From Campylobacterales bacterium (lineage in GTDB: Bacteria; Campylobacterota; Campylobacteria; Campylobacterales; Sulfurospirillaceae), in contig JAFGFU010000013.1 of assembly GCA_016930915.1 (NCBI GenBank), forward strand, positions 62,001 through 126,000: 64,000 bases of DNA, in the 5' to 3' direction. The position numbers were made by a program, and so were the translations under genes. Each line of letters opens with the position of its first letter. Within the stretch, counting starts at the first letter, position 1. The notes beneath the pieces are model-generated. The model made no database searches. It saw only the letters and a program-made list of their open reading frames with translations, and was not told where the DNA came from. Below, in pieces: positions 36,709 to 53,647 of this stretch.

Positions 36709-37731
36709 TTAAAGATTAAAATACTGCTTTAAGGCTTCATCAGAGAGTTCTACAGTGAAAAACACTCTGTAAAACTCTTTCACTTTATCCTGAATGGAGT
36801 GACAATACTGCTTGGGATACAACCGACTCGCTACCCAATGCGCACTCAAAATTCGCATAAAAGAAGGGGGTCTATCAACCCAGTTAAAGGGCGTATTGGG
36901 GACAAGATAGACCCGTTTGTTTTGAACGGCCTTGAGTGTTTTCCATTTTGCATCATCAAAGATTTTTTTGAAAAATGAAGCTTCTTGCACGATAATTGCA
37001 TCAGGGTCATACGTAGCAACTTGTTCAAAACTCACCCTTTGCAAGCCCAAAATGGTCGCTTGCTGGCATTTATGCACCAAATCTGCCCCTCCTAAAACAA
37101 AGGCTTCGGTATGAAACGATTTGTCACAATCGGTGGCTAAACCATCTTCTTCTTCCGCATAGTAAAGCTTAACACGTTTTTCTTGTGGCAAAGTTTTAAC
37201 AAACTGGTCAATCTCTTTAAGATACTTTGACGCCATATCTGCAAGTTTATTGGCACGCTCTTCTTTGTTCAAAACTTTACCCATAAAGCGAAAAACATCG
37301 GGGTAATTGTGCACATCATCGAGATTGACTTTAAGTGTGGATACGGAGATACGAGCAAGGTCTTTGCTTATTTTTTGATTGAGCAAGGGGGTGTCCCATG
37401 TCACAAGTAACTCAGGTCTCGCTTCCAAAATAGTCTCAAGATTGGGAACACTATCGCCATGCCATGTTCCAAGCATGGGTAGCTCCATAAAATGTTTACT
37501 CAAGAATTTATCGCCATTTTTATTGCTTTTATTGATTTGGGGGAAATTAACACCCATAAGAGGCGTATCATCAATCACCGCAATCAAAAAAGAAACAGGC
37601 GGTGCTGTCGTAAAGATTCGGCTTAAGTGCTCTGGCAAAACCACCTCTTTGTTATTGACATCTAAAAAGGTACGAGGCGCACCTAAGAGTGCTGAAAAAA
37701 ACAGCAATACAACGAGCAATAAACGCATCAC
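36709..37731 (-). CDS. Periplasmic binding protein, FecB/BtuF/MolA-like (paralogue 1)
   Basis: 340 residues with a signal peptide (LLLVVLLFFSALLGA). The TroA/FecB class fold is indicated by VNNKEVVLPEHLSRI, VPNLETILEARPELLVTW and a final DRPPSFMRIL; a conserved Cys lies in the ATDCDKSFH stretch. Two more copies of the same length occur at 44548-45570 and 48376-49398. The class carries metal chelates, cobalamin or, in Haemophilus MolA, molybdate and tungstate. It is the last gene on the minus strand of the TonB island, after a hairpin. Confidence 0.78.
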   Translation of the reverse strand: MMRLLLVVLLFFSALLGAPRTFLDVNNKEVVLPEHLSRIFTTAPPVSFLIAVIDDTPLMGVNFPQINKSNKNGDKFLSKHFMELPMLGTWHGDSVPNLETILEARPELLVTWDTPLLNQKISKDLARISVSTLKVNLDDVHNYPDVFRFMGKVLNKEERANKLADMASKYLKEIDQFVKTLPQEKRVKLYYAEEEDGLATDCDKSFHTEAFVLGGADLVHKCQQATILGLQRVSFEQVATYDPDAIIVQEASFFKKIFDDAKWKTLKAVQNKRVYLVPNTPFNWVDRPPSFMRILSAHWVASRLYPKQYCHSIQDKVKEFYRVFFTVELSDEALKQYFNL

Positions 37732-37753
37732 ATCTCCTTTAAAAATAAATTTT

Positions 37754-37775
37754 CAAGAGAGCCTAAACTCTCTTG
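37754..37775 (-). terminator. Hairpin between receptor and binding-protein genes
   Basis: An eight-base stem (CAAGAGAG and complement, six-base loop) with a T-rich stretch after it on the minus strand lies between the TonB receptor (37859-40084) and paralogue 1. It may reduce read-through into the latter. Confidence 0.5.
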
Positions 37776-37858
37776 TATGCTTTACATGTAACCAATGGAA
37801 TCTTCTCTTAAAAATTAAAATAATACAGCTACCATAGATACAGTAATAACATGCCTAT

Positions 37859-40084
37859 CTAAAATTTCAATCCAACGCTTAAATAAGCACTAAAGGGTGC
37901 TCCTACGAGATAAGTAGGTTGCGTTGTATCGGCAGCAAGGGCATTATCGGGCGTAATGATAGATGCGATGTAGCGTTTATCAAATAAATTGACAAGGCTC
38001 AATTTTAAATCAGCTGATTTGAAACCTTTTATCTTAGGGAGTTTATAATCAATGTCAAAATCAACTGTTGTAAACGAAGGAATTTCTTGTGTATGATCAG
38101 CATTGCCATATCTGCTTCCCGTGTACTTCACAATAGGGGTAAATTTCCAATTTTCTATTTTATACGTTAAAGATCCTTTCACGCCTCGTGTTGGAGCATC
38201 AGGGATTTGATTACCCTTAATGGAACTTGTTTCTGTTGCCATTGTTTTAAAATCTTCCGTATAAGAGTACTGGTTATAAAAGAAGCTTGCTAGAAAATCG
38301 ATTGACTCACTAAGAGCGCCACTCATAGCGAACTCTGCGCCATAGCTCATTGCATCTATACTATTGGAAGGATAGGCTATGCCATATTGAGAGTCATAAA
38401 CATTGGCCTGTTTACCCGTGACCGTTGTGAAAAAAAGATTTGGATTATACACAATACCGTTGTGTCTGTATTTTATACCCAGATCGAAATTATCCGATAG
38501 TTCTAATTTTTGTTTATCCCACAATTGTTGTAGCGTTACATTTTTCGCTACAAAATTAGCACGACTCGCAATATACGTTGGGAATAGATTGACGTCATAT
38601 CCATAACTTCGAGCATAATCGAAATAAACATCGGTATTTGGGGTAAGTTTATACCCTAAATAGGCACTTGGTAACCACTCTGTAAATGTCTTTGAATCAA
38701 CACTACCCCATGGATCAATCGTTCCTTGCGCTATCGCCGTGTCATAATCAGAACTGGTCATAGCATTGGTACCAAAAGTATAATTTTTCAATCCTGCTAA
38801 TTTAAAATCAAGGTATCGAATGCCAAAAGAGTAACTAAATTTATTTCTATCTCCACGGAACTCTATAAAGGGCGAATTAAACTCATGATATTCATTCTTA
38901 GCTAAAATATTCCATCCCGCATATTGCAACTGCCCCGATGCGTTAATGGTATAAAGTCTACGACTAGAAGGTGGTCCAGGGGGTTGTTGTCTGCCTCGCC
39001 AGTACCCCATTTTCATATTAAGCTCATCGCTTAAAGGAACTTCATACTCAAGGACTGCGCCATAGCGATCATGATCGATCAACCATTCAATTTCTCTTGT
39101 TTTAGCATCATTGCTAAACCAATACGTCCCCTTATCTTCTGAATAATAAGGTTTGAACCGCACAACAGAATCATTGACAAAACGATACTCAAAGTTCGCG
39201 GCTAAAACGGTATCAGTAAATGATTGTTTATTCCAATCATAATAATTTGAGCTTCCTGCACTAGAAGCACTATTCCAATCTTTTTTAGCGTAGGTATCCA
39301 AATCTTTCGCTTCTGCATAACTTAAACCATAATAATTATGATGCTCATCTTTATTGTGAATGAAAAACATTTCTGTTTTAAAATTATCATTAGGTGTATA
39401 AACAGCACCTAGCATTGCATTGGTTCGATCTAAATCACCTTCACCTTTCCATTTATCGCCACTTGTTTTAGAAACAGAGCCAAAAAGCGCTAGATCTTCC
39501 ATTTGCCCTGTATCAAATCGCAAAAAGCTTCTTAAGGCGTTATCTGATCCAACAGTTTGAGCAAATTGTGTTTCCATCTCTTTTTTGGGTCTATTAACGG
39601 TTAAATCAACCTTACCTATAAGATTTGAAAAACCAAGACTTTTATCAACAGGTGCGTATCCTTTGTAAAGATCAATACCCGAAATATTTTCCATATCAAA
39701 CATGGTTTTACCGCCGCCTGGATTACCACTAATCGGCAGAGATTCAAGCATATACACACCACCTGGTCCTGATTGATTTTTGCCCCTGATTCTTAATGGA
39801 TCATGAAAAGATGTTTCATTAGAGCCAAAGGCTTCTGTGGGTTGATAATCTACAGAAGGTGACATACCAACAACTTTGAGGGCTGACATACCAATAGATC
39901 CACCATAAAGTTCAATTGCCTCTTTGGTAAAACCTTGAGAATTAATATTATCTCTATTGTCCGTTTCGAAAATAGCACCATCACTACCATTTGATACAGT
40001 CACTTTTTCTAACGTATGCGTATCTTCGCTGTAAAGAATACTCAACGTAGCCATTAAACTCATCAAAATAACTTTTTGCTTCAT
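37859..40084 (-). CDS. TonB-dependent outer-membrane receptor, 741 residues
   Basis: Signal peptide (LMSLMATLSILYSED), plug domain with a TonB-box-like start (LEKVTVSN), RIRGKNQSGPGGVYMLESLPI, and a 22-strand barrel ending in the terminal aromatic strand SAYLSVGLKF. It imports a ligand across the outer membrane using TonB energy. It lies in the same direction as exbB-exbD-tonB and the FecCD-type importer. The ligand is not evident; a metal chelate is likely, and ModE context suggests molybdenum or tungsten. No TTACATGTAA copy lies in the gene. Confidence 0.88.
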   Translation of the reverse strand: MKQKVILMSLMATLSILYSEDTHTLEKVTVSNGSDGAIFETDNRDNINSQGFTKEAIELYGGSIGMSALKVVGMSPSVDYQPTEAFGSNETSFHDPLRIRGKNQSGPGGVYMLESLPISGNPGGGKTMFDMENISGIDLYKGYAPVDKSLGFSNLIGKVDLTVNRPKKEMETQFAQTVGSDNALRSFLRFDTGQMEDLALFGSVSKTSGDKWKGEGDLDRTNAMLGAVYTPNDNFKTEMFFIHNKDEHHNYYGLSYAEAKDLDTYAKKDWNSASSAGSSNYYDWNKQSFTDTVLAANFEYRFVNDSVVRFKPYYSEDKGTYWFSNDAKTREIEWLIDHDRYGAVLEYEVPLSDELNMKMGYWRGRQQPPGPPSSRRLYTINASGQLQYAGWNILAKNEYHEFNSPFIEFRGDRNKFSYSFGIRYLDFKLAGLKNYTFGTNAMTSSDYDTAIAQGTIDPWGSVDSKTFTEWLPSAYLGYKLTPNTDVYFDYARSYGYDVNLFPTYIASRANFVAKNVTLQQLWDKQKLELSDNFDLGIKYRHNGIVYNPNLFFTTVTGKQANVYDSQYGIAYPSNSIDAMSYGAEFAMSGALSESIDFLASFFYNQYSYTEDFKTMATETSSIKGNQIPDAPTRGVKGSLTYKIENWKFTPIVKYTGSRYGNADHTQEIPSFTTVDFDIDYKLPKIKGFKSADLKLSLVNLFDKRYIASIITPDNALAADTTQPTYLVGAPFSAYLSVGLKF

Positions 40085-40113
40085 CTTAACCCTTTATATG
40101 AATTTAAAAAAAT

Positions 40114-40569
40114 CTAAACTAAAAACATCAACTTCGCTAACAAAACAATGATGACTCCCAATGTAAAAATATAGTAATAGGAAGAACTTTCAACAGGATT
40201 TGGATCTTGTGAATTTTTTATCTTAAAGAGGAGACGTTTTGTGATAGATAAGACAACTTTGATTCCAATGCCATAAGCAAGTAAGCCTTTTAGAATAAGC
40301 ATCGTTTGAAAATTGTTAGGGAAAATCCCATTTTCAAAGGTGAGATACTGCGTACTTAAAATCGTACCTGTCAAGATCAGTACCATCATATTAGCGGGAT
40401 AAATTTTCCAAACTCTTTTGGATAACTCTTTTTGTAAATTGGCAAAATTATCTTTACCAAACGTACTATTAATAGGGGCAATAACAAAAAGTTTAGCAAA
40501 GCCCCAACCCATAAATAACATTGCACAAAAAAGATGCGCAATGAGTGTTGTTTTGTATAGTAACTCCAT
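40114..40569 (-). CDS. Small four-helix membrane protein, CopD/DUF2269-like
   Basis: 151 residues with four hydrophobic segments. The His in LIAHLFCAMLFMGWG near the N-terminus and YPANMMVLILTGTIL resemble the CopD/DUF2269 group, in which conserved His may bind metal or haem. It sits between two TonB-dependent receptors. Function is unknown; a role in the energy or metal step of the uptake island is possible. Confidence 0.6.
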   Translation of the reverse strand: MELLYKTTLIAHLFCAMLFMGWGFAKLFVIAPINSTFGKDNFANLQKELSKRVWKIYPANMMVLILTGTILSTQYLTFENGIFPNNFQTMLILKGLLAYGIGIKVVLSITKRLLFKIKNSQDPNPVESSSYYYIFTLGVIIVLLAKLMFLV

Positions 40570-40650
40570 AAAAATTCCTTTTTTATGTGATAAATAAAAA
40601 AAACAGAGGCTAAGCCCAAAGAACTCTAATTTTTTTACATGTAAAGCGTT

Positions 40651-42663
40651 TTAGAAGCTATAACGCACATTCGCGTAATAGTTTCGACCCTCTTGAACAT
40701 AGCCATTATTGTAGTAATAAAGCTCATCAAAGAGATTTTTAATGCCAACGGCGAGTTCAAGCGCTTTGACAGGTCTGTACGCAATGCGTATATCTGCCAC
40801 CGTATAGGAGCTACTCTTTTCACTGCCTGTTACGTTAGAATAACGCTCACCTTCGTGTCGAAGGATAGGAGTAATATCAATCGAATGAATCGGTGAATAG
40901 GTCATACTTGCATAATAACTGTGTTTGGGTGTATCGGTCGTGTACTGAGCATTTGCCGTTTTACTGTCTTCAATTTCTGCGTCAATATAGGTGTAAGAGA
41001 GCGTACTTTTAAACTGACTGCTCCACAACGAATCCAATGTAATTTCCACACCTTTATGCTCTTCTTGATCGAAATTTTGCATTTGTTTGCAGTTTGTACC
41101 GGTACAACCCAGTGTGGCATCTGTATTGGTTAAACCACTCACGGAAGCAATATAATCTTTTGTTTTGGTGTAAAAAAGCGCTACTTTAGCATGATGATCG
41201 TCCACAAATGCCCAATCACTGCCGACTTCATACGTCGTAGAACGTTCTGCATCCAAGCTAGGATTGAGAATATAATCTCCAAATTTTGAGGAGTAACGAT
41301 CTTTCAGTGTTGGCATGTTACTTTTTTGAGAGATGCTTCCATAAAACATCAACTCTTTTGTGGCATTAAACGTCAGAATAGTTTGAGGATTGAAGGCATC
41401 AGAGTCGTATTTGGGAAACTCTCCAGCGATGAGTGTTCCTGCACTGTTTCGGTATTCTGCTTTTGTCACCTCATTTTTATCGTAACTGCCACCCAATGTC
41501 CATGTTAATTTATCATTCAGTTGCCATGAATATTCAGCGCCTAATGACAACGTTTTACTCTCATCTTTAAGATCTGCATTAGGAGATTTTGAGCTGATGT
41601 CTTTGTGATTGTCGTATTTTTGAGAAACAGAAAGTTTCAAAAGATGATTATCAGCGATTTTAATATCCCCTTCGACAATGCCACCAAAGGTGTTATCATC
41701 GTATTCTGAAATCTCGCTCACAACATCTTGCGCCCCAGATTGCGGTGTTCCTTTAAATAGAATTTTGTTGTAAAACTCATCGTAATACAGACGTGTTTTA
41801 AGATAATGCTCCCCAATAGCCGTTTTGGTAATCAGATAATAACTCGTCTTATCCCAGTCTTTCCAATCCCAGTTGCGGTTATAAGCATTGTTCGTTGTAG
41901 TACCTTGCGCCATCGCAAACCACGGTTGCTCTTTTTCACCACGTTGAGCGATATAATTCAAAGAGTACTCATCCGTTGAATTGGGGGTATAGCCGACTTT
42001 GATGTTTATTTTTTTATCGCCATACTCTGAATTGGAACGTTTGCGTCCTTCTTGATGCCCTGCAGAATCGTAATCGCTTGGAAGTTTATAATAGTCTCTT
42101 TGCATATTGGAAACAGAGAGCAATCCATAGTAAAGCTCTTGTTTGGTTCCGATGGTTGCATACTCCTCATAGCCATTGCCACTAAATACGCCCGCACCAA
42201 CTTCGCCCTCAAGCTCTTTGGTCGGTTTTTTGGTAATAAGATTTATCGCCCCACCCATGGTATTTGCCCCATACATCGGAGAAACATAGCCTTTGGAAAC
42301 ATCGATCTCACCAATATCATAGGTTTTAAACCGTGCCAAATCGATATTGTGATCGTAGGGAACGTAAATGGGAATTCCGTCGATGTAAATAGGCACACGC
42401 GTACTCGAAAAGCCACGCACACGCACTTTTGACTCACCTCTTGCCCCCGTGTAATCCGTATAAACACTCGGTACACTTTGCAGTGCTTCAACAACCGTTT
42501 TTGATTCACTCTCTTTGATTGTCTCTGCAAAAACAACATCCACACTTGGATTTTGATTAATATCCTTCTGTGAAGTTACCTCAATTTTTCCTAACTCATA
42601 CGGCTCACCCATCAACACGGATGCAGTGATCAACGAGAACGCCACGCCAATTTTAAATTTCAT
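40651..42663 (-). CDS. TonB-dependent outer-membrane receptor, 670 residues
   Basis: Signal peptide (FSLITASVLMGEP), TonB box LGKIEVTSQ, plug motifs VRVRGFSSTRVPIYIDGIPI and MYGANTMGGAINLITKKP, barrel ending ...NYYANVRYSF. The plug resembles FepA/CirA/BtuB-type receptors. It follows the FecE-type ATPase gene by 74 bases, with a ModE-like site in that gap. A TTACATGTAA copy lies just past the stop. Confidence 0.9.
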   Translation of the reverse strand: MKFKIGVAFSLITASVLMGEPYELGKIEVTSQKDINQNPSVDVVFAETIKESESKTVVEALQSVPSVYTDYTGARGESKVRVRGFSSTRVPIYIDGIPIYVPYDHNIDLARFKTYDIGEIDVSKGYVSPMYGANTMGGAINLITKKPTKELEGEVGAGVFSGNGYEEYATIGTKQELYYGLLSVSNMQRDYYKLPSDYDSAGHQEGRKRSNSEYGDKKINIKVGYTPNSTDEYSLNYIAQRGEKEQPWFAMAQGTTTNNAYNRNWDWKDWDKTSYYLITKTAIGEHYLKTRLYYDEFYNKILFKGTPQSGAQDVVSEISEYDDNTFGGIVEGDIKIADNHLLKLSVSQKYDNHKDISSKSPNADLKDESKTLSLGAEYSWQLNDKLTWTLGGSYDKNEVTKAEYRNSAGTLIAGEFPKYDSDAFNPQTILTFNATKELMFYGSISQKSNMPTLKDRYSSKFGDYILNPSLDAERSTTYEVGSDWAFVDDHHAKVALFYTKTKDYIASVSGLTNTDATLGCTGTNCKQMQNFDQEEHKGVEITLDSLWSSQFKSTLSYTYIDAEIEDSKTANAQYTTDTPKHSYYASMTYSPIHSIDITPILRHEGERYSNVTGSEKSSSYTVADIRIAYRPVKALELAVGIKNLFDELYYYNNGYVQEGRNYYANVRYSF

Positions 42664-42687
42664 TTTCCCTCCTTTTGTATGCTACCA

Positions 42688-42717
42688 AAACATAGTATTT
42701 TATTTTATATAACGATA
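42688..42717. promoter_or_regulatory. ModE-box-like site before the TonB receptor
   Basis: The right arm TATATAACGATA (42706-42717) is a perfect ModE half site; the left arm, six bases away, is weak (about half the positions match). It lies 25 bases upstream of the 670-residue receptor gene. Confidence 0.45.
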
Positions 42718-42737
42718 CCTCTAGCTTTTCAAAAAAT

Positions 42738-43538
42738 CTAACCAACCTCTAACATTTTAGTCGTATGCACAAATGAAGGAATGCAGACAGGATAGCCGCA
42801 AACCGTCTGTTTAAGCTCGATGTTTGTGTGGTAAAGCTCGTTAATAAGATCTTGTGTAATCGTTTTACATGTAAGCCCGTGCGCTAAGATATGCCCATTT
42901 TTCAGCGCATACGTGTAACCACCTAGCATCAGCGCATGTTCAGGGAAATGGGTTGATTTTAAAAAGGTGTAGCCCTCTTTGGAGAGCTTCAGGATCGTCT
43001 CCAAAAGGCGCAGTTGATTGCCATAGTCTAGCCCCGAAACGGGTTCATCCATGACCAATATTTTTGCCCCCTGTGCTAAAGAACGGGCGATTAACACCAA
43101 CTGCTTTTCCCCACCACTGAGCGTTTGAAAAATACGCTTTTCCAGATAAACAATGCCCAATCGCTCCATCGCAGCGCGTGCTAAATCCCTGTCCTTTTTA
43201 CTTGGTTTTTGAAACCATGACTCAAAAGCGATGCGCCCCATCATAACAATGTCAAGTGCGCAAAACGCGAAGGCAACCTGTGTACTTTGCGGAACATAGC
43301 TTACATGTAAAGCCCTCTCTTTGATCGAATAGCTCTGTAATGGCTTTCCTTTTAAGAGCACTTCGCCACTTTCTGGGCTTAAAAGTCCTAAAAAAAGTTT
43401 CATCAGCGTACTTTTTCCCGTGCCATTGGGTCCTAAAAGTGAGACGATGGAGCCCTCCTCGATGCGAAGATCCACCCCTTGCAAAATCGGCGTGCTGTTG
43501 TAAGAAAAATAGAGATTTTCAGCGCTGTAAAAACTCAT
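42738..43538 (-). CDS. FecE/MolC-type ABC ATPase
   Basis: 266 residues. Walker A GPNGTGKST, signature LSGGEKQLVLIARSL, Walker B ILVMDEPVSGLD. The type is that of iron-siderophore, cobalamin and MolABC importers. It overlaps the permease gene by four bases. Two TTACATGTAA copies lie within it. The next copy to the right is 7.2 kb away. Confidence 0.88.
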   Translation of the reverse strand: MSFYSAENLYFSYNSTPILQGVDLRIEEGSIVSLLGPNGTGKSTLMKLFLGLLSPESGEVLLKGKPLQSYSIKERALHVSYVPQSTQVAFAFCALDIVMMGRIAFESWFQKPSKKDRDLARAAMERLGIVYLEKRIFQTLSGGEKQLVLIARSLAQGAKILVMDEPVSGLDYGNQLRLLETILKLSKEGYTFLKSTHFPEHALMLGGYTYALKNGHILAHGLTCKTITQDLINELYHTNIELKQTVCGYPVCIPSFVHTTKMLEVG

Positions 43539-44551
43539 GCAAATCCTTTTTTCGCATTTTTAAGCGCAAAGACAAAGATGGGAATACCAATGAGTGATGT
43601 CGCAATCCCGATGGGAATTTCAACGCTCATCGAAGTACGACATAAAGTGTCCACGATGATGAGAAAAGTCGCACCCAAAAGAGCACACATCGGAAGCAGA
43701 ACACGATTATCTGCTCCTACCAAAAAGCGTGCGATATGTGGAATGATAAGTCCTACCCAGCCGATCATTCCAGCCACAACGACGGTCAGAGTGCTGAGCA
43801 AAGTAGCGAGTAAAATCGCACTGTTGCGCACCCAAATGACACGCACACCCAGCGCCTTGGCATCCTCATCGCCCAGACTTAAAACATTGAGGTATTTGCC
43901 CATGAAAGAGAGCGCCATGGTGCTGAAAATCAGAGGAATGGCAACGCCAGAGAGTGTTTTCATATCGACTGAGCTGAAAGAGCCCATCAACCAGTAGACA
44001 ATCGTCGGAAGTTTGTTGTACGGATCGGCAACATACTTCACCGTTGAAAGCAGTGCGGAAAAAAGTGAACTGGAGATGACGCCACCAAGGACTAAAAGAA
44101 TCGTCTGTGAGCCACTCCTGCCGTAAATCTTCGCCACACCAAGGGCGACCAAAACGGCTACAAACCCAAAGGTAAATGAGAAGAGTTGCACGCCAAACCA
44201 GCTATCAGAGATCATAATGCCAAGTGCAGCGCCAAACGAAGCACCGGCAAGCACGCCCAAAATACCAGGAGATACCAGAGGGTTCACAAACATCGCTTGA
44301 AACGCCCCACCTGAAACCGAGAGTGCAGCGCCCACTAAAATGACCGCTAAAATGCGTGGTAAGCGAATGTCAAACACGATGTTAGACAAAAGCATCACCT
44401 CTTTGGGAGCCGTACCAATGTTCAGCAGTTTCCATAGAAGCAGCTGCGTCAGTGTGCCAAGGTCGATCTCATAGCGACCAAGGGCTAGGGAAATGAGCAA
44501 ACTTACCCCAAGCAACACCGCCATCATGCCAAAAAGAAACGAGTTTTTCAT
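43535..44551 (-). CDS. FecCD/BtuC/MolB-type ABC permease
   Basis: 338 residues with about ten helices. VGAALSVSGGAFQAMFVNPLVSPGILG (near 77-103) and GWVGLIIPHIARFLVG (near 262) are the FecCD family motifs. It forms the inner-membrane channel with the ATPase at 42738 and takes ligand from the binding protein at 44548, whose gene it overlaps by four bases. Confidence 0.92.
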   Translation of the reverse strand: MKNSFLFGMMAVLLGVSLLISLALGRYEIDLGTLTQLLLWKLLNIGTAPKEVMLLSNIVFDIRLPRILAVILVGAALSVSGGAFQAMFVNPLVSPGILGVLAGASFGAALGIMISDSWFGVQLFSFTFGFVAVLVALGVAKIYGRSGSQTILLVLGGVISSSLFSALLSTVKYVADPYNKLPTIVYWLMGSFSSVDMKTLSGVAIPLIFSTMALSFMGKYLNVLSLGDEDAKALGVRVIWVRNSAILLATLLSTLTVVVAGMIGWVGLIIPHIARFLVGADNRVLLPMCALLGATFLIIVDTLCRTSMSVEIPIGIATSLIGIPIFVFALKNAKKGFA

Positions 44552-45570
44552 AGCACGCCCGAAATTTCATGAATCTGCTGCTCTGTGAGATCAATGTTCA
44601 AAAAAAGTTTGTAAAACTCACGCATCTCTTGCGCAAATTGCTCCGAATTGGGTGTATTGTAAAAAATATGCGTCAGCCACCTCACACCCAAAAGCCGCAT
44701 AAAAGAGGGCGGTCGGTCGATCCAGTTAAACGGCACTTTGGGCACGAGAAAGATTTTGCCCTCTTTGATGGCTTTGATGGAATTCCACCTCGCATCGCTT
44801 TTGACTTTCTCAAAAAATTCTTTCTCTTGCGCGACGATGACATCGGGATTGTATAAAATAACCTGTTCTAAAGAGACCTTTTCAAGCCCCAGTCCGCTTT
44901 TGGTCGGACATAAATGTGGGTTGATGCCACCTGCAAATTTGATCGCTTCGTAGTGAAATGACTGGTCGCACTCAGTCGCAAGCCCATCTGCGCCCTCTGC
45001 GTAGTAGACAACAGGGCGCTTTGTGGCATTTGTTTGCACGATTTCTTTGGTTTTTTCCAGTGCGACACGGGCATAGTCTGAAAGCACTTTTGCCCTAGCT
45101 TGCCTGTTTAAAACCTCACCAAAAAAGAGGTAGGCTTTGGGCAGACTCTCAACGCTCTCCAAGTCCACATTGATACTCGGAATTTTACTGCTCTCAAAAA
45201 GATACTTCGCTAACTGACTCGAAGCATCGTTGTTCCACAAAAAGACCACATCAGGATGCAACGAGAGCAAGGTTTCCCGATTCATACTATTCCCTCCACC
45301 TTGAAGACCTCCCACAACAGGAAGTGCCATAAAACGAGGGTCAAGCATATTGGAGGATTCGTTATTGCCACGGGCATGGTTGAAATTCAGCCCTACGATC
45401 AAGGAAGCGTCAATCGTATAGATCATATACGTCGATGGCGGAGAGGTGCCAAACACTTTGGTGATGACATTGGGGATTTCAACGCTTTGTCCGCCCATAT
45501 CGACGATCTCATGCGCTCCTAGGCTGACAAATAACCCTAAAAGTGCTAAAACGATTTTTTTCATACCCAT
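44548..45570 (-). CDS. Periplasmic binding protein, FecB/BtuF/MolA-like (paralogue 2)
   Basis: 340 residues with a signal peptide (IVLALLGLFVSLGAHE). It shares with the other copies the motifs VDMGGQSVEIPNVITKVFG, ATECDQSFH (conserved Cys) and DRPPSFMRLLG. It is coded directly with the FecCD permease and FecE ATPase, so it is the dedicated partner of that importer. The gene lies 83 bases after tonB in the same direction. Confidence 0.82.
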   Translation of the reverse strand: MGMKKIVLALLGLFVSLGAHEIVDMGGQSVEIPNVITKVFGTSPPSTYMIYTIDASLIVGLNFNHARGNNESSNMLDPRFMALPVVGGLQGGGNSMNRETLLSLHPDVVFLWNNDASSQLAKYLFESSKIPSINVDLESVESLPKAYLFFGEVLNRQARAKVLSDYARVALEKTKEIVQTNATKRPVVYYAEGADGLATECDQSFHYEAIKFAGGINPHLCPTKSGLGLEKVSLEQVILYNPDVIVAQEKEFFEKVKSDARWNSIKAIKEGKIFLVPKVPFNWIDRPPSFMRLLGVRWLTHIFYNTPNSEQFAQEMREFYKLFLNIDLTEQQIHEISGVL

Positions 45571-45653
45571 TCCTTTTTCAGTTCACAATAAGAGCATATA
45601 TTTTCAATTTCATATGATTCAAAACTCCTTGATCTTGACATATTACTTATTTC

Positions 45654-46349
45654 TTAAGAAGTGAGTTTAAAAACAACAGGCACTTTAATTTCAATATCCT
45701 CGTGGGGAGGGACCTCAAAAGGGAGCGCTTCCATGACCGCATCAATAGCATTGCGATCTAAAACTGCTTTTCCACTGGACTTTGTAATTTTAATCGATGA
45801 GGCATCCACCATACCATTGGTGTGAATTAAGAACTGTATGATGGCTTCACCCTCCATACCCATTTTTTTTGCCATTGAAGGGTAACGAAGGCTACCTTGA
45901 ATTTTTAGTCTAACTTTGGAAAGATAGACTAAAAGTAGGTCTTCCTTACGTTCTGATGTACTTGCATGAGGAATTTCTTTCTCTGTTCGCACAGTAGCTT
46001 GTATCGCCTCTTTTTGCTCTTGTAAAGGCTCTTGGGAAACTGCGTGTTCTCCCTGTGTAGAAGGTTTTTGGATGATTTTTTGCATAAGAGTCGTTTTCCC
46101 CAACGCTTTGGAGACTTTTTTTTCAGGTTTTTTCTCAACAATGGGCTCGATTTTATTTGGAAGCTCTTGTTGAATTTCTTCTTGAAGTGGGCTAGGTTGA
46201 ATCTCTTCTATCAAACTCACATGGGTAACAATAAACTCTTTGAGCATAGGTTTTTTAAGCATGACACTTCCTGTAAAAAGCAAATATGCTATTAAACAAT
46301 GAATCAAAAAAGTCCCAAAAGAAGCAACAAAAAAATGCGATATTTTCAC
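45654..46349 (-). CDS. tonB: TonB energy-transducing protein
   Basis: 231 residues: an N-terminal membrane anchor (FLIHCLIAYLLFTGSV), a Glu/Lys/Pro-rich periplasmic spacer (about 45-140), and the C-terminal TonB domain (RYPSMAKKMGMEGEAIIQF, SSGKAVLDRNAIDAV, VPVVFKL). It transmits the proton-motive force to outer-membrane receptors. It overlaps exbD by four bases. A set devoted to this island is implied by position. Confidence 0.9.
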   Translation of the reverse strand: MKISHFFVASFGTFLIHCLIAYLLFTGSVMLKKPMLKEFIVTHVSLIEEIQPSPLQEEIQQELPNKIEPIVEKKPEKKVSKALGKTTLMQKIIQKPSTQGEHAVSQEPLQEQKEAIQATVRTEKEIPHASTSERKEDLLLVYLSKVRLKIQGSLRYPSMAKKMGMEGEAIIQFLIHTNGMVDASSIKITKSSGKAVLDRNAIDAVMEALPFEVPPHEDIEIKVPVVFKLTS

Positions 46350-46753
46350 ATTTTTCTCTTTGTGGTTTGAATGGCAAAAGTACTAATATGGTTCTTTTTA
46401 CAAATATCAATGAGTTTAACCACATGCTCAAAGGGTGTTTTTGCATCACTGCGAAGAACGATATGAGGCTTTTTGGTACTTATTTGCGCTATTTTCGCAT
46501 CCAATAATTCTATGCTCAACGCCACATCGTCATAATAGAGTTCTCCCGTTTCCGTGAGCGACAAGATAATAGGCTTCTGCTCATCTTTATGATTTTGAGC
46601 CGTAGAGGCTTGTGGAAGATTGAGCGGTATTTTACCTTGGGTAACAAAGGTGGCTGTCACCATAAAAATGACCAAAATCACTAAAACAATATCCACAAAA
46701 GGGGTCATATTGATCTCAGCAATGTCGCTTTCATAAACAGGCTCACGCTTCAT
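46346..46753 (-). CDS. exbD: ExbD biopolymer transport protein
   Basis: 135 residues with one N-terminal membrane helix. INMTPFVDIVLVILVIFMVTA holds the essential membrane Asp (VDIVLV). The periplasmic domain has the usual NLPQAS and VVLRSDAKTPFEHVV-like stretch. It works with ExbB as the proton-driven motor for TonB and overlaps exbB by 11 bases. Confidence 0.92.
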   Translation of the reverse strand: MKREPVYESDIAEINMTPFVDIVLVILVIFMVTATFVTQGKIPLNLPQASTAQNHKDEQKPIILSLTETGELYYDDVALSIELLDAKIAQISTKKPHIVLRSDAKTPFEHVVKLIDICKKNHISTFAIQTTKRKM

Positions 46754-47189
46754 TGAGTTGTGCCTCTTTGTATGTTAATACCACTTTGACACGTCTAATA
46801 AAATAGTTATAAGCAATCACACAAGGAATAGCAACAAAAAGCCCAGTAGCCGTCGCAATCAATGCTTCAGAAATACCTTGCATAATAGGCTGAACATCAA
46901 AAACATTGTTAGAACCCATGGTATGAAACGCTTGAATAATGCCTAAAACCGTTCCAAAAAGCCCAATAAAAGGGGAATTGTTGCCAAAGGTTGCTAGAAT
47001 ACCTAAATGCGACTCAAGACTCAATCGCAAGGTATAATAATCCATCGTTTGATACTGTTTTTGAAGCGCACTAAACGCTAATAAACGCTCTATCATTACC
47101 CCAACAGCAACCACACTCATCGCAACCAAAATCCAAAGAACAGGGTCAATCCCCAAAAGGGCAAACGATAATAGCTTTTCACTAAGCAT
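46743..47189 (-). CDS. exbB: ExbB biopolymer transport protein
   Basis: 148 residues, short for the family, with three hydrophobic segments. ATFGNNSPFIGLFGTVLGII and EALIATATGLFVAIPCVIAYN are the conserved channel segments. It is the first gene of the exbB-exbD-tonB operon. Two ModE-box-like sites lie 50-140 bases upstream of it. Confidence 0.9.
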   Translation of the reverse strand: MLSEKLLSFALLGIDPVLWILVAMSVVAVGVMIERLLAFSALQKQYQTMDYYTLRLSLESHLGILATFGNNSPFIGLFGTVLGIIQAFHTMGSNNVFDVQPIMQGISEALIATATGLFVAIPCVIAYNYFIRRVKVVLTYKEAQLNEA

Positions 47190-47240
47190 CTTCTCTCCTC
47201 ATTAATACGTATTTCATAGATCCAAAAATTCCTATTTATT

Positions 47241-47332
47241 CGATATATACTTTTTGTAAATAACGGTTGAGATAAAAATAAAAAATTAGTAATGCTGGAT
47301 TGTATCGTAATATAATTAAAAATACAACGATA
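47241..47332. promoter_or_regulatory. Two ModE-box-like palindromes before exbB
   Basis: CGATATATA-N7-TAAATAACG (47241-47265) and TATCGTAATATA-N6-AATACAACGATA (47303-47332) resemble the E. coli ModE operator (CGnTATATA arms, N6). They lie in the 294-base region between exbB and the divergent modE gene and cover likely exbB promoter positions. ModE bound to molybdate usually represses uptake genes, so repression at high Mo/W is expected. Confidence 0.65.
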
Positions 47333-47429
47333 ATTCTATCTTCTCTTTTTTGCATATGCTATGACTTACATCAAGAGTTATATTTCCAAGAAATAGAAGA
47401 TGACTTCTTTCATAAACATTTGTAAAATT

Positions 47430-47470
47430 GACGATTGATTTGAGATTTGGTTATACTTTTCAGAGTATAA
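47430..47470 (+). promoter_or_regulatory. modE promoter with inverted repeat
   Basis: TTGACG (near 47428-47433) and TATACT (47452-47457) form a promoter. TTATACT-N6-AGTATAA (47451-47470) is a perfect inverted repeat covering the -10 box, a possible autoregulatory site. Confidence 0.5.
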
Positions 47471-47492
47471 AGATCAGGTAAAGGTGATAGTA

Positions 47493-48266
47493 ATGTTAGA
47501 AGCAAGACTTTGGATGAAAAAAAGCGACAAAAATTATCTTGGCAAAGGGCGTATTGAACTCTTAGAGCGTATCCGTGAAAACGGCTCTATCCACGCTGCT
47601 GCGAAATCGATGAAAATGAGTTATAAAGCTGCTTGGGACTCCGTCGATGCTATGAATAATCTTTCTGAAGTACCCTTGGTTGAAAAGAAAAATGGTGGCA
47701 AAGGCGGTGGAGGAACATTTCTGACCCAAAAAGGTGAAGAGGTTATTGAAGCTTTTCATAATTTACAAGCCAAACACCAACAATTTTTAAATCTTTTTGC
47801 CAACAGTGATGACATGTCCACCATTGTTCAAACACTGAGTCGTCTCTCTTTAAAACTCAGTGCTCGCAACCAGCTTATAGGCACCATTAGCGCAATTCGT
47901 GAAAATGCTGTCAATATTCAAGTTGAGCTTACTATTAAAGCAGCCGATAAAATTTACGCCAGTATTACCAAAAGTAGCTATCAAGAACTAGGTCTTCATC
48001 TAGGAGAAAATGCTATTGCCATTATTAAGGCCAGTTCCATGTTACTCTCAAAAACAACACCTACCATTGCATGTGAAAATCTCTTACAAGGAAAAATTAT
48101 CCAAATTCTAAGCGACACAACTAACACCGAAATCACCTTAGAACTGAAGAGCAAAAGTACCATCACTGCGACCATTGCCAATGATGCCTTTGAAACTTTA
48201 GGGTTAAAAATCAATGAAGAGGCATATGCTTTCTGTAAAGCATCAAACGTCATTTTAGGTGTTTAA
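47493..48266 (+). CDS. modE: ModE molybdate-responsive regulator
   Basis: 257 residues. The N-terminal winged helix (about 1-100) has GKGRIELLERIRENGSIHAAAKSMKMSYKAAWD and the ModE-specific Gly-rich KNGGKGGGGTFLT. Two Mop/TOBE domains follow (SARNQLIGTISAI near 120, CENLLQGKIIQIL near 190), which bind molybdate or tungstate between dimers. I chose ATG 47493 (AAAGGTG upstream) over a GTG nine bases earlier. It is a complete, canonical ModE, unlike the protein at 34897, and sits at the centre of the TonB island. Confidence 0.92.
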   Translation: MLEARLWMKKSDKNYLGKGRIELLERIRENGSIHAAAKSMKMSYKAAWDSVDAMNNLSEVPLVEKKNGGKGGGGTFLTQKGEEVIEAFHNLQAKHQQFLNLFANSDDMSTIVQTLSRLSLKLSARNQLIGTISAIRENAVNIQVELTIKAADKIYASITKSSYQELGLHLGENAIAIIKASSMLLSKTTPTIACENLLQGKIIQILSDTTNTEITLELKSKSTITATIANDAFETLGLKINEEAYAFCKASNVILGV

Positions 48267-48375
48267 TTATTAACTAACCGCAAGCCTTCAGATTATCGCA
48301 GATAAAAAAGTTTAATGTTTACATTATATATTTATTTATACAATGGATAGAAATTTTCTTTTTGGAGGCGTTTCT

Positions 48376-49398
48376 ATGCATTTATTGGTTCTTTTTTTAC
48401 TTTTTTTTAGCTCCCTTTTTGCCAACGAAGAACGTACCTTTGTCGATATTTCAGGCAAAACCATCACATTACCTGAACATATCACACGCATTTATGGTTC
48501 AGCTCCACCCATTAGTTTCATGATTTATGTCATTGATGACACTCCACTTATTGGTGTGAATTTTCCACAAACAAACAAAGACAACAGCGATGGTGAAAAA
48601 TTTTTGAGCAAACATTTTATGAGTCTTCCTATTTTAGGAGGATGGCATGGCAATAACATTCCCAATTTAGAGGCAATTTTAGCGGCAAAACCTGATGTCA
48701 TTATCACATGGGATACACCACTCCTCAATGAAAAAACTGCCAAAGATTTAAAACGCATTCACATTCCTGCTCTTAAAGTAAACATTGATGATTCACACAA
48801 TTATCCTGAAGTATTTCGCTATCTTGGAAAAGTAATGAACAAAGAGGAGCGTGCCAATAAACTCGCTCATATGGCGCAGAGCTATTTAGATGAACTTAAA
48901 ACGTTTGTCGCAAGCATTCCTGAAAAAGAACGTACCAAAGTCTATTATGCTGAGGGTGACTTTGGACTACAAACGGAATGCGACATCTCTTTTCATTCAG
49001 AACCTTTAGCACTTGCTGGAGGCAACTTAGTACACAAATGTGTTCAAAATAGCGTTATGGGATTGCAAGAAGTAAGTTTTGAGCAGGTTGTTGTGTATGA
49101 TCCTGAGGTAATCATCGTACAAAATCCTACGTTTTACAAAACAATCTTTAACGATAAAAAATGGGCAATGCTCAAAGCCGTTCAAAATAAACGCATTTAC
49201 CTAGTCCCAAAATCACCTTTCAATTGGACAGATCGTCCGCCTTCTTTTATGCGGATTATTGGGGCGCATTGGATTGCGAGCAAGCTTTATCCTACACGAT
49301 ATCCGTACAAAATTCAAGACAAAATAAAAGCCTTTTACCAGCTCTTTTTTGGTGTTAAACTCAGTAACGAAGATTTAAAAATCTATTTTAACCTGTAA
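48376..49398 (+). CDS. Periplasmic binding protein, FecB/BtuF/MolA-like (paralogue 3)
   Basis: 340 residues from ATG 48376, which has GGAGG seven bases upstream; an in-frame ATG 33 bases earlier would disturb the signal peptide (LLVLFLLFFSSLFANE). It is much closer to paralogue 1 than to paralogue 2: IDDTPLIGVNFPQTNKDN, LSKHFMSLPILGGWHG and DRPPSFMRIIGAHW match nearly throughout. It lies between modE and the radical SAM fusion gene (17 bases ahead of it), so those two form a unit. Confidence 0.82.
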   Translation: MHLLVLFLLFFSSLFANEERTFVDISGKTITLPEHITRIYGSAPPISFMIYVIDDTPLIGVNFPQTNKDNSDGEKFLSKHFMSLPILGGWHGNNIPNLEAILAAKPDVIITWDTPLLNEKTAKDLKRIHIPALKVNIDDSHNYPEVFRYLGKVMNKEERANKLAHMAQSYLDELKTFVASIPEKERTKVYYAEGDFGLQTECDISFHSEPLALAGGNLVHKCVQNSVMGLQEVSFEQVVVYDPEVIIVQNPTFYKTIFNDKKWAMLKAVQNKRIYLVPKSPFNWTDRPPSFMRIIGAHWIASKLYPTRYPYKIQDKIKAFYQLFFGVKLSNEDLKIYFNL

Positions 49399-49415
49399 GT
49401 ACGAAAGGAATTTAT

Positions 49416-51197
49416 ATGATTTGCCCAATCTGTGAACGACGATGTCGTATCGAAGAAAAAGATATTGGGGCGTGCGGTCGCTACCAATGTAAAAATAACA
49501 CCCTAATAGAGCGTTTTCCAAACGCATACCTTGTCGTAGCACCTATTTCAGCAGAAACGATGCCCGTGCTTCATTTTCACCCTCGTGCCAAATTTTTACA
49601 AATTAGCACCACAGGGTGTAATTTTGACTGCTTAGGATGTATTTCAACGGTGGTCGCTAAAGAGATGGATACGCAAAGCCCTGCGCTTAAAAAACTTTCA
49701 CCCATACAAATCATCAACAAAGCATTAGAACAAGAGTGCGATGGCATTGTCTTTCTTATGAACGACCCCCTCGCCTCCTTTTACACCTTTTTAGAGATTT
49801 GCACGCTTGCTAAAGAGCATGGGCTTTTGACGGGGTGTTCAACCAACGGCTATTTTACGCAAGAATCTCTCGCATTGCTCTCCCCTCATCTGGACTTTGT
49901 CAATATTGGACTCAAAGGCTTGTGTAACGATATTTACCGTAGTTGTGGTGCGTCTAGCTACAAACCTGTGTTACGCAATATCGAACTTTTTTACCGTCAA
50001 GACGTGCATGTTGAAGTGGCGTGTATTCATAAAACCGATAACGAAGAAGAGCTCTTAGTGATTGCCCAAACGTTGGCACACATTTCCAAAGAAATTCCGC
50101 TTCAAATGATGCGATTTATTCCCATTGATGACGCTAGCATCGGCTTAGAACCCTCCATTTTAGCGTCTGAAACCCTTTATAAAAAGCTCTTATCGCATCT
50201 TGATTATGTCTATCTTTTCAACTCTCCTGGAACGGAGTGCCTTAACACCTATTGTCCCAAGTGTGGTGCATTGATTTTTGAGAGAGATTTTTACGGACCC
50301 ATGGGCTCAAAATTAAGAACGGTTAGCCCAAGTTATCACCGCAACACGTGTTCAAACTGCCACCACGTTCTCCCTATCAAAGGAAAACCTGCCAAAAAAA
50401 TCTTCAATGAAGATGGTTTTGAAGGCGGTTATCCACTCACAAGAGCTTTAGAAATTGTCGAGGGCACTCTTGCAACGCTAGGTGTCAAAGAGCAAAAAGA
50501 TGTCACGGCATGTTGGGAAGAGCTTTTACAAGGGGACGGACTGAAACGTTTACATGTAAACATTCAAAACTTTGACGATTATGCCAATACCATCAACTAT
50601 CTTGCCAAAATGACGCATCAAGAAGATACGGCTGAGAGATTACTGGATTATATGCGAAACAAAATTGCCATAATCACACAAGAGCTTCCCAAAATACACA
50701 CCAAACCACGGGTCTATTATGTGATGGGGAAACCCTTGTTCGCACTTGAAGAAGAACGCCTTGAAAACCAATTGGTCGAAATGGCAGGTGGCATTAGTGT
50801 CAATAAAGGGCTAGACTTGCAAGGAAGACCGGGGAAGAAAATATCCGTCGAAATGCTCAACGCACTCAATCCTGATATTATTTTTATCTCATCGTTCTTG
50901 GATTGTCCGTTGGACGAATTTTACATGTATTGTGAAACACAAGGCATTGACGTGGAAGCGCTCAAACAAAAACGCATCTACACACACCTTGCACCCTGTT
51001 TTGATTTTGGAAGCCCTCGTTGGATTTTGGGTTTGATGTACATCGCCAACATGCTCCACCCAACGCTTTACCATTTCGATGTTTTAGAAGAAGCCCAATT
51101 CTTTTACCAAACATTTTACGAAAGCAACTTTACACTCTCAACCATCAATCGCTCCTTTGCCAAACCAAGCCAACACCACAAAATGGTTCAAATTTAG
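49416..51197 (+). CDS. Radical SAM protein fused to a FecB/BtuF-like binding domain
   Basis: 593 residues, no signal peptide. Residues 1-60 have Cys pairs (CPICERRCRI, ACGRYQC). The radical SAM motif is STTGCNFDCLGC (CX3CX2C, near 67-75), within a PflA/AmrS-like half up to about 290. A Cys-rich linker follows (CPKCGALIF, CSNCHHV). Residues about 345-585 resemble the C-terminal part of the neighbouring binding proteins (VYYVMGKPLFALEEERLENQLVEMAGG, NPDIIFISSF, PRWILGLMYIANMLHP). A cytoplasmic binding domain joined to a radical SAM enzyme suggests it acts on the imported ligand. Function is not established. Confidence 0.75.
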   Translation: MICPICERRCRIEEKDIGACGRYQCKNNTLIERFPNAYLVVAPISAETMPVLHFHPRAKFLQISTTGCNFDCLGCISTVVAKEMDTQSPALKKLSPIQIINKALEQECDGIVFLMNDPLASFYTFLEICTLAKEHGLLTGCSTNGYFTQESLALLSPHLDFVNIGLKGLCNDIYRSCGASSYKPVLRNIELFYRQDVHVEVACIHKTDNEEELLVIAQTLAHISKEIPLQMMRFIPIDDASIGLEPSILASETLYKKLLSHLDYVYLFNSPGTECLNTYCPKCGALIFERDFYGPMGSKLRTVSPSYHRNTCSNCHHVLPIKGKPAKKIFNEDGFEGGYPLTRALEIVEGTLATLGVKEQKDVTACWEELLQGDGLKRLHVNIQNFDDYANTINYLAKMTHQEDTAERLLDYMRNKIAIITQELPKIHTKPRVYYVMGKPLFALEEERLENQLVEMAGGISVNKGLDLQGRPGKKISVEMLNALNPDIIFISSFLDCPLDEFYMYCETQGIDVEALKQKRIYTHLAPCFDFGSPRWILGLMYIANMLHPTLYHFDVLEEAQFFYQTFYESNFTLSTINRSFAKPSQHHKMVQI

Positions 51198-51226
51198 ACA
51201 CAAACCTCTTGTGCTTCTCTTCAAAA

Positions 51227-51254
51227 TTCGTTATAGTTTCAACTATATAACGAA
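51227..51254. promoter_or_regulatory. ModE-box-like operator before the methyltransferase
   Basis: TTCGTTATAGT-N6-TATATAACGAA; with the flanking A/T bases 13 of 15 positions on each side are symmetric. The form and six-base spacer match the E. coli ModE operator. It lies 16-43 bases upstream of the methyltransferase start, in the 72-base gap after the radical SAM fusion gene. Confidence 0.7.
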
Positions 51255-51269
51255 TTTTGAAGGATTTTT

Positions 51270-52055
51270 ATGGAAGCAAAGCTTACCTTTTGGGACAACA
51301 TGGCAAAGCGTTATCCACGCTTTAACGATGCTTCAATGAGCAAAGATGTCAATCACATTTTAAACTGGTGCCATGAAAACGATGTTTTCTTTGACAACAT
51401 GTCCGTTCTTGACATTGGTGCGGGAAAGGGTTCTATGACCATTCCTCTCGCACAAAAAGGAGCTCGTGTCACAGCCATTGATGTCTCAGCGGGTATGCTA
51501 GAAGCCCTCAATGAAGACGCCACCCAAACAGGCGTGTCACACCATGTCCAAACCCATCAAAGCGATTGGGGTGCTTTTGCGTTGGCAAAACAATACGACA
51601 TCGTCATCGCCTCCATGACCCCTGCGATTAATGAGGTGCAAAAAATTGAAAAAATGCTTGGTGCCACCAAACAACTTGGCATTTACGTGGGGTGGGGAAA
51701 ATACCGCACCAACAAGCTTGTGGAAGCCTTAGCCAAAGCGCACACGCTTCAAGAAGAAGACGATTGTTCATCAGCAGGCTGCTTTAGAGTGGCACAATTT
51801 ATGGAAATTTTAAATGAAAAACAGATTGCCTATGAGAGTACTTTTTTTGACACGGGTTGGGAAGAGGAGTACTCGTTTGAAGAAGCCAAGGAGTATGCGT
51901 ACGAGCAACTTGGTCGCAAAGAGCTCACTCCCGATGATGCCATCATCGAATCTATCCTACTCGCCCACATGCAAAACGACAAAGTCATCGTACAAACGCA
52001 AGCCGAAAAAGGAGTTGTGTTGTGGAAAAAACTTAACGCATCCTCGAATAGCTAA
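51270..52055 (+). CDS. Class I SAM-dependent methyltransferase
   Basis: 261 residues. The SAM-binding motif VLDIGAGKGSMTIPLA (near 45) and the acidic strand TAIDVSAGMLEAL are clear; the C-terminal half has Cys residues (DDCSSAGCFRVA). Substrate unknown. It is the last gene of the modE/binding protein/radical SAM group and has its own ModE-like operator, so methylation of an imported or produced ligand is conceivable. A convergent formate dehydrogenase gene follows after 53 bases. Confidence 0.82.
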   Translation: MEAKLTFWDNMAKRYPRFNDASMSKDVNHILNWCHENDVFFDNMSVLDIGAGKGSMTIPLAQKGARVTAIDVSAGMLEALNEDATQTGVSHHVQTHQSDWGAFALAKQYDIVIASMTPAINEVQKIEKMLGATKQLGIYVGWGKYRTNKLVEALAKAHTLQEEDDCSSAGCFRVAQFMEILNEKQIAYESTFFDTGWEEEYSFEEAKEYAYEQLGRKELTPDDAIIESILLAHMQNDKVIVQTQAEKGVVLWKKLNASSNS

Positions 52056-52108: not shown

Positions 52109-53008
52109 TTACACCTTGCCTTCTTCTTTGAGTTTTCTATACCAAGAACTATGAAGAATAGCAACTTCTTCTTCTTCTTTATAGCCTGTAATCATAGAGT
52201 GAATTGCACCTTTGATTGCAATCGCTGCCATGTAAACATGTACCATAAAAAACGTAGCAACCACCATACCCAATACATTGTGGATAATCGCCGAGATACG
52301 GAGTAAATCAATTTGACTGACCCCAAAAAGTGTTGCTACAGGAGAGAGATTGATATTTAAGAAAAACATCAACGCTCCTGTTAAAATCATTAAAATACCA
52401 CCAGGCATTGCAATCCAAAACCACGCCTTTTGACCTGCGTTAAACTTACCCGCAGGAATAGGCTTTTTCTCTTTGGAAAGATAGCCTCCTACAATCATCA
52501 TCCACTTGACATCATCCATGTTGAAAATCATATCTCGAATCCATGCGATGATCATAGGAAGGACGGTAATCGCAAAAACAGGTGTGGCAATACCATGAAG
52601 GTTTTTACACACACGAACGAAGGTTCCACCTCCGAAGAAGTCTCCAAACGCCATCACAAATCCTGTTGGCACCAACACCAAAAAGGAGAGTGCCGCAAGG
52701 TTGTGCATGATACGCATGAACAAGCCAAATGCAAAGATTTTCTTGCCATCATGCGAAAACACTTTAGGTCCAATAATCATATAATGAATTGAACCTGCAA
52801 CAGGAACTAAAAAGAGCGCAATCAAAAATCCTTTCCAAAACCACTCACGTTGGAGGTAGGTAAAAACCTCTCCAAACGCAAAGTATTTTGGAATAGCATT
52901 GAGCATGGCTGTTCCATACAAAGGATCATCATACGTTCCTGTGCTTATGGCATATAAAGAGGTCATCGAAAGTAACAAGCTGCTTAAGAGCACACGGTAC
53001 TTTTTCAT
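52109..53008 (-). CDS. fdhC: Formate dehydrogenase cytochrome b subunit
   Basis: 299 residues. A signal-like N-terminal helix is followed by four membrane helices carrying His ligands for two haems b (RIMHNLAALSF, CKNLHGIATP, AIIHNVLGM, MVHVYMAA). It anchors the periplasmic FdhAB to the membrane and passes electrons to menaquinone. It overlaps fdhB by four bases. It is the last gene of the operon. Confidence 0.92.
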   Translation of the reverse strand: MKKYRVLLSSLLLSMTSLYAISTGTYDDPLYGTAMLNAIPKYFAFGEVFTYLQREWFWKGFLIALFLVPVAGSIHYMIIGPKVFSHDGKKIFAFGLFMRIMHNLAALSFLVLVPTGFVMAFGDFFGGGTFVRVCKNLHGIATPVFAITVLPMIIAWIRDMIFNMDDVKWMMIVGGYLSKEKKPIPAGKFNAGQKAWFWIAMPGGILMILTGALMFFLNINLSPVATLFGVSQIDLLRISAIIHNVLGMVVATFFMVHVYMAAIAIKGAIHSMITGYKEEEEVAILHSSWYRKLKEEGKV

Positions 53009-53637: not shown

Positions 53638-53647
53638 AGGGCTCTCC

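Follow-up and report, generated by a model that had tools for sequence, protein, structure and literature searches.

Molybdenum and tungsten are assumed to cross the outer membrane via porins as free oxyanions. A known importer of these metals, MolBC-A of Haemophilus influenzae (HI1470-1472), is of the FecBCD type (type II); its MolA protein binds molybdate and tungstate, and in vivo the system acts as a low-affinity molybdate importer (PMC4031551). The operator of the E. coli-type ModE regulon has the consensus ATCGNTATATA-N6-TATATANCGAT (PMC545781). A TonB-dependent molybdate receptor was already suggested for Azotobacter chroococcum, in which Achr_39320-39290 occur with modE, modG and modABC (PMC4465626), in one sentence on one genome that leaves aside operators, wider distribution and accessory enzymes. 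A comparative genomics paper on the use of Mo makes no mention of TonB or MolA (PMC6147048), and in the open-access literature (subscription journals were outside the scope) nothing on ModE-controlled TonB receptors was found beyond the Azotobacter sentence.

The island described here lies in a 64-kb stretch of DNA, referred to below as the window, from a sulfur-respiring bacterium. It shares the FecBCD-type importer with MolBC-A, but also has a TonB complex of its own, together with receptors, a methyltransferase and ModE operators. Its ModE has the architecture and the operator of the E. coli-type regulon, whereas the targets include TonB, receptor and methyltransferase genes. The likeness to the A. 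chroococcum genes is by description, and since a TonB-dependent molybdate receptor was suggested there, the island is a new and widespread variant and not a new category; its set of accessory proteins is unusual. We consider it very probable that the island takes up molybdenum or tungsten species, with energy supplied through TonB and expression controlled by ModE. This is offered as the best explanation of gene content, operators and conserved association, which were computed; from these we infer the cargo, the direction of regulation and the roles of the enzymes.

Gene content of the island and its flanks

Domain searches with Pfam and NCBIfam, together with the open reading frames, placed all genes named in the initial annotation at the positions given there (Table 1). 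The genes form two divergent blocks around a common region of 0.3 kb. The leftward block runs exbB, exbD, tonB, the gene of a FecB-like binding protein (SBP2), the FecCD permease, the ATPase, a TonB-dependent receptor (TBDT2), a 151-aa membrane protein, a second receptor (TBDT1) and SBP1; the rightward block consists of modE, SBP3, a radical SAM-SBP fusion and a methyltransferase. FecCD permease, FecE-type ATPase and FecB-type binding protein are encoded in one unit, as in a MolABC-type importer, and this importer, the TonB complex and the receptors support the earlier proposal of a system spanning both membranes. The 151-aa protein had been called CopD-like; as it has no Pfam match, this identity was dropped. 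Its homologues, about 59% identical, come after the same ABC genes in Sulfurovum-type loci (L060, L061).

The flanks, absent from the initial annotation, also carry Mo/W genes: wtp, mod and fdhD lie beyond SBP1, and a formate dehydrogenase operon lies beyond the methyltransferase gene. The gene of the formate dehydrogenase alpha subunit (53648-56512) has its in-frame TGA at residue 189, the selenocysteine position. In the regulator adjoining wtpABC, the N-terminal region is apparently duplicated ahead of the ModE-type DNA-binding domain, and this protein is a candidate tungstate-responsive regulator.

Table 1. Features of the island, its flanks and related loci (window positions unless a locus is named)
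Feature	Position	Strand	Basis
modC-like, modB-like, modA-like (molybdate ABC transporter), context	29393..31975	-	NCBIfam modA, Mo_ABC_porter over cut-off; WtpC-like
wtpB-like, wtpC-like, wtpA (tungstate ABC transporter), context	32055..34752	-	WtpA equivalog over cut-off; WtpB 295/340 bits
Regulator with ModE-type DNA-binding domain, without Mop/TOBE, context	34897..35634	-	TIGR00637 64 bits
fdhD, context	35637..36425	-	PF02634
SBP1, FecB-like periplasmic binding protein	36709..37731	-	PF01497; 36% to SBP2
TBDT1, TonB-dependent outer-membrane receptor	37859..40084	-	PF00593
151-aa membrane protein, no assigned family	40114..40569	-	no Pfam match
TBDT2, TonB-dependent receptor	40651..42663	-	PF00593 + PF07715; TIGR01785 below cut-off
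ModE-like box before TBDT2, CATAGTATTTTATTTTATATAACG	42691..42714	.	14/18
FecE-type ATPase	42738..43538	-	PF00005
FecCD-type permease	43535..44551	-	PF01032, 255 bits
SBP2, FecB-like periplasmic binding protein	44548..45570	-	PF01497; 4pag E 1e-73; MolA 3psa 1.4e-13
TonB	45654..46349	-	PF03544
ExbD	46346..46753	-	PF02472
ExbB	46743..47189	-	PF01618
ModE box between exbB and modE	47241..47265	.	1 mismatch, N7
Second ModE-like box between exbB and modE	47306..47329	.	3 mismatches, N6
ModE, HTH + tandem Mop domains	47484..48266	+	TIGR00637 over cut-off; TIGR00638 two stretches
ModE-like box before SBP3	48322..48345	.	3 mismatches
SBP3, FecB-like periplasmic binding protein, PDB 4PAG orthologue	48343..49398	+	PF01497
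Radical SAM (AmmeMemoRadiSam-like) fused to SBP-like domain	49416..51197	+	PF04055 + PF01497; TIGR04337 below cut-off
ModE box before methyltransferase	51229..51252	.	2 mismatches
Class I SAM methyltransferase, travels with FecBCD systems	51270..52055	+	PF13649; family alignment
fdhC, fdhB, selenocysteine-containing fdhA, context	52109..56512	-	one in-frame TGA
Perfect ModE box before fdh maturation/fdh operon	59517..59541	.	0 mismatches
Truncated globins	L043 7304-7852, 10621-11193; L044 7765-8310, 11080-11652; other congeners		HGbIV-type, His-His pair

ModE operators

The island ModE scores 101.4 bits with TIGR00637 (cut-off 98.5) and has two Mop/TOBE domains, each a separate stretch of TIGR00638, behind its HTH domain. 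A first, shorter operator pattern gave counts at chance level and gave way to the consensus published for E. coli, spacer length included. The box searched was CGNTATATA-N6/7-TATATANCG with at most 3 mismatches in 16 core positions, and the expectation was taken from shuffles. The window contains three boxes with the N6 spacer against 0.18 expected, and two with N7 against 0.08. By these counts the ModE-like palindromes noted earlier before exbB, a receptor gene and the methyltransferase gene are real; the one before TBDT2 is weaker than the others, but its position is occupied by a box in most congeneric islands. The search also brought up two further boxes: one precedes SBP3, and the other, free of mismatches, precedes the fdh operon.

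In the whole 2.23-Mb genome, only five sites have 2 mismatches or fewer, and these stand at the methyltransferase gene, the fdh operon, the exbB/modE region, a second modE (modE2) on another contig and a modA-mop operon (L198, with ModA and Mop assigned from its sequence). Since the modE2 and modA-mop sites are independent checks, the motif can be regarded as the organism's own ModE operator. When up to 3 mismatches were allowed, the reversed control pattern gave 10 sites genome-wide against 9 for the motif with N6, and 16 against 7 with N7, and sites with 3 mismatches therefore count by position and conservation alone. The congeneric islands have 46 boxes in 11 loci (1.3 expected), at the same positions as in the window, and the loci of other genera have 44 (3.7 expected), whereas control FecCD loci have 4 against 4.7 expected. 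Control of the island by ModE, as had been proposed, is well supported by the sequences: a ModE with HTH and tandem Mop domains is encoded in the island, E. coli-type operators precede the targets and are kept in relatives, and elsewhere in this genome the motif stands before modA and modE2. By analogy with modABC of E. coli, ModE would repress the island when Mo or W is plentiful.

With a simple consensus, no Fur box was found at any island promoter, and the total in the window was not above chance. A different palindrome, TTACATGTAA, occurs at 39 sites in the window (0.17 expected) and at 1127 sites genome-wide, against 6 for its letters reversed; the longest stretch of the window without it, 43310-50550, lies within the island.

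Distribution of the gene set

The initial annotation had called for a search of the genome and its relatives for the same gene set and ModE boxes, and both recur, in Campylobacterota and in other phyla. Relatives of SBP2 were found in 65 of 399 genomes of the order. In their 20-kb neighbourhoods receptors, SBP, FecCD, ATPase, ExbBD/TonB and methyltransferase genes recur, often with genes of a luciferase-like oxidoreductase (LLM) and a globin. Three loci (L050, L071, L086) have a contiguous run on a single strand, modE-modA-mop-modB-modC-TBDT-LLM-SBP-FecCD-ATPase, which continues towards the methyltransferase gene. The island is also present in two named congeners, Sulfurospirillum diekertiae and S. 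cavolei; together with the S. deleyianum protein encoded in an orthologous island (see below), this places the window in Sulfurospirillum or a very close relative. A profile scan of named genomes gave 445 relatives, in Campylobacterota, Desulfobacterota, Geobacter, Syntrophorhabdus, Rhodocyclales and others; a frequent order here is TBDT-FmdE-MT-SBP-FecCD-FecE-ExbB-ExbD-TonB (MT, methyltransferase), with ModE nearby in several. The genome of the window itself has a second, TonB-less locus (L041, G000:C30:1-10414), in which fdhA2 adjoins MT-SBP-FecCD-ATPase-FmdE-CrcB-DUF190-ModE2-ModD and a ModE box precedes modE2.

Twenty other FecCD loci of this order served as controls. A ModE, ModA, Mop or ModD gene lies within 10 kb in 11 of 14 Sulfurospirillum loci, 16 of 32 loci of other genera and 34 of 69 loci from named genomes, against 0 of 20 controls; the named-genome set and the order set overlap in part, and these loci had themselves served as seeds for the neighbourhood HMMs. 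Fisher tests of this association gave p values of 1e-4 and 1e-5, in which independence is overstated since the loci are related. A ModE box with 2 mismatches or fewer was present in 13/14, 17/32 and 24/69 loci of the same three sets and in 0/20 controls. One or the other, a Mo gene or such a box, was found in 13 of the 14 loci of the genus, 23 of the 32 of other Campylobacterota and 40 of the 69 further loci, altogether 76 of 115 SBP-family loci compared with none of the 20 other FecCD loci. Half of the loci of other Campylobacterota genera (16/32) have no Mo genes nearby, and in 9/32 a box with 2 mismatches or fewer is missing as well. Even so, at a tolerance of 3 mismatches the 16 loci without Mo genes contain 21 boxes where 3.3 are expected, and several of these stand directly before SBP, LLM, TBDT or globin genes.

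Some further genes were seen in these neighbourhoods. DUF364/DUF4213 proteins, annotated as 'putative heavy-metal chelation', recur in Desulfobacterota versions of the locus (L102, L109, L115, L128). TauE/SafE-type membrane proteins adjoin the SBP gene in some Campylobacterota versions (L066 11939-12706, L073 10694-11482). In several Sulfurospirillum loci (L043, L044, L047, L041), crcB, which encodes a fluoride channel, and a DUF190 gene occur downstream of the methyltransferase gene or beside modE2.

Binding proteins

The crystallized protein 4PAG, a binding protein of S. deleyianum DSM 6946 whose deposition title names no ligand, is identical to SBP3 of an orthologous island (L042), which is 89% identical to SBP3 of the window over 325 residues. 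A profile of 41 family sequences run against the PDB gave 4PAG first (E 8e-129), then 4OVK, 4HN9 and MolA (3PSA, 8e-30), with MolA ahead of YiuA, IsdE, BtuF and the binders of haem and siderophores. The structure model of SBP2 (pLDDT 89.5) ranked the folds similarly, with Z scores of 39.0 for 4PAG, 31.2 for 4HN9, 29.1 for 4OVK and 26.8 for MolA (300 residues); YiuA (siderophore) and CeuE followed at 24-25, and BtuF and haem proteins at about 20. By sequence profile and modelled fold, MolA is the nearest functionally characterized relative of the binding proteins, with a modest margin in fold. The suggested comparison with MolA holds at the level of fold and family, but it does not extend to the most conserved residues of the island family, two invariant Cys and a DRPPSFMR motif. 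Since MolA has neither, its ligand mode and geometry are not simply transferable. The assignment of the island to Mo/W, which the initial annotation had put forward, gains support from this relationship, as it does from the recurrent mod genes, the close ModE boxes and the absence of both from all 20 controls.

Accessory enzymes and globins

When compared with the PDB, the methyltransferase gave only general SAM methyltransferase matches and LLM only luciferase-type monooxygenases in general, neither with a hint at the substrate. A paralogue of the methyltransferase (46%) is encoded by the first gene of the TonB-less FecBCD locus in the same genome, a locus that includes FmdE, modE2 and modD and adjoins another fdhA. 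The radical SAM-SBP fusion lacks a signal peptide, and its radical SAM half is rich in cysteine, so the SBP half should be cytoplasmic as read from the sequence; the structure model of the fusion was poor (pLDDT 63.6) and was left out of the analysis. Radical SAM-like ORFs of about 600 aa in two other genomes (G165 and G043; L048, L049) were rejected, as they sit in unrelated neighbourhoods.

Two truncated globins are encoded in congeneric islands, and the genome of the window has neither. Their best solved match, nearly over full length, is 4NK1/4NK2 (E 7e-64), which we take to be HGbIV of Methylacidiphilum infernorum, as the His-His description fits. The HisB9-HisB10 pair of HGbIV is positioned to bind phosphate in the crystal (PMC4476040). 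This pair is common to the M. infernorum protein and the globins of the congeneric islands, and both histidines are invariant in 16 of 16 globin sequences. Among the 399 genomes, 43 of 46 strong globin hits lie within 10 kb of an SBP-family gene, compared with 0 of 25 checked weaker hits, which are ordinary truncated globins. From the His-His geometry one might guess that the globin holds molybdate or tungstate.

Proposed mechanism and alternative cargoes

In the mechanism that we propose, low Mo/W would be sensed by ModE and the units exbB-exbD-tonB-SBP2-FecCD-ATPase, TBDT2-small protein-TBDT1-SBP1, SBP3-radical SAM and the methyltransferase would be expressed. The cargo would enter the periplasm through one or both receptors and be relayed by the three binding proteins to the only FecCD-ATPase importer of the island; the metal would end up in the pterin cofactor of the adjoining formate dehydrogenase. 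The cytoplasmic methyltransferase and the radical SAM-SBP fusion would process the ligand or set the metal free, as might the globins, LLM, FmdE and DUF364 proteins in relatives. Since wtpABC and modABC adjoin the island and already serve the free oxyanions that pass porins, and since the enzymes are co-regulated with transport, the metal probably arrives as a complex or in some other form that is not readily available. The argument is indirect, and a metallophore complex, as first proposed, is a candidate for this form. Methyltransferase, LLM, radical SAM protein and globin could be enzymes of ligand processing or of ligand synthesis; genes for the synthesis of a chelator or ligand were not recognized in the loci examined. 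In its fullest form, which we put forward as a tentative possibility, this would be an undescribed and widespread class of Mo/W metallophore with an organic ligand, its own TonB receptor, MolA-related binding proteins, a methyltransferase, radical SAM-SBP fusion and LLM which open the complex, and a His-His globin holding the oxyanion in its haem pocket.

A serious rival, although we rate it as somewhat doubtful, is that the receptor takes inorganic Mo/W directly, be it molybdate, tungstate, thiomolybdate or a polyoxometalate, much as TonB receptors take nickel and copper. No organic ligand would then be involved, and the methyltransferase and the radical SAM protein would have another cofactor-related job. 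In sulfidic sediments Mo is expected as thiomolybdate, and many carriers of the locus inhabit such sediments. The lack of recognized chelator synthesis genes fits such a cargo as well, and so does the binding of bare oxyanions by MolA (PMC4031551). However, free oxyanions are already covered by wtpABC and modABC next door, and the co-regulated cytoplasmic enzymes with a cytoplasmic SBP-like domain fit a ligand that needs processing. Also conceivable, but improbable, is the salvage from other cells of intact pterin-bound Mo/W, that is, molybdopterin or its breakdown products. The methyltransferase, FmdE and ModD families point past simple ion uptake to the handling of Mo, and GTP cyclohydrolase I is encoded near the locus of one relative (L066); against this, no molybdopterin-handling gene is a regular member of the loci, and the molybdenum cofactor is unstable outside proteins.

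The remaining alternatives have cargoes other than Mo/W, for which the initial annotation had left room. TBDT2 is most like haem and siderophore receptors, its top score being with the TonB-dependent haem receptor model (TIGR01785, 181.9 bits against a cut-off of 316.85), and the ATPase scores best with haem ATPases, all below cut-off; relatives moreover have globins. A system for haem or a ferric siderophore might have come under ModE, for instance to provide molybdoenzymes with iron. That reading is nonetheless quite unlikely in view of the promoters, which have no Fur box, of the recurrent linkage in single operons with modA, mop, modB, modC and modD across families, and of the globins, which are of the HGbIV type with its His-His oxyanion site. 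Uptake of cobalamin or another corrinoid, to which weak matches with BtuC and BtuF models could point, is hardly credible, as the Btu models score far below their cut-offs and ModE operators are present; neither a cobalamin riboswitch nor any other Rfam match was found in the 64-kb window.

Implications

The uptake of a Mo or W species by the island is directly testable, an orthologue of SBP3 having already been crystallized (4PAG), and the loci of the congeners provide a first genomic context for HGbIV-type globins. If the proposed function is true, anaerobes of several phyla would have a conserved ModE-controlled TonB route, by which the outer membrane would become a controlled step in the acquisition of Mo and W. 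Complexed or thiolated Mo/W would then be a real nutrient in anoxic settings, and the limitation of formate dehydrogenase, nitrate reductase and nitrogenase by Mo/W would become accessible to genetics through the island.
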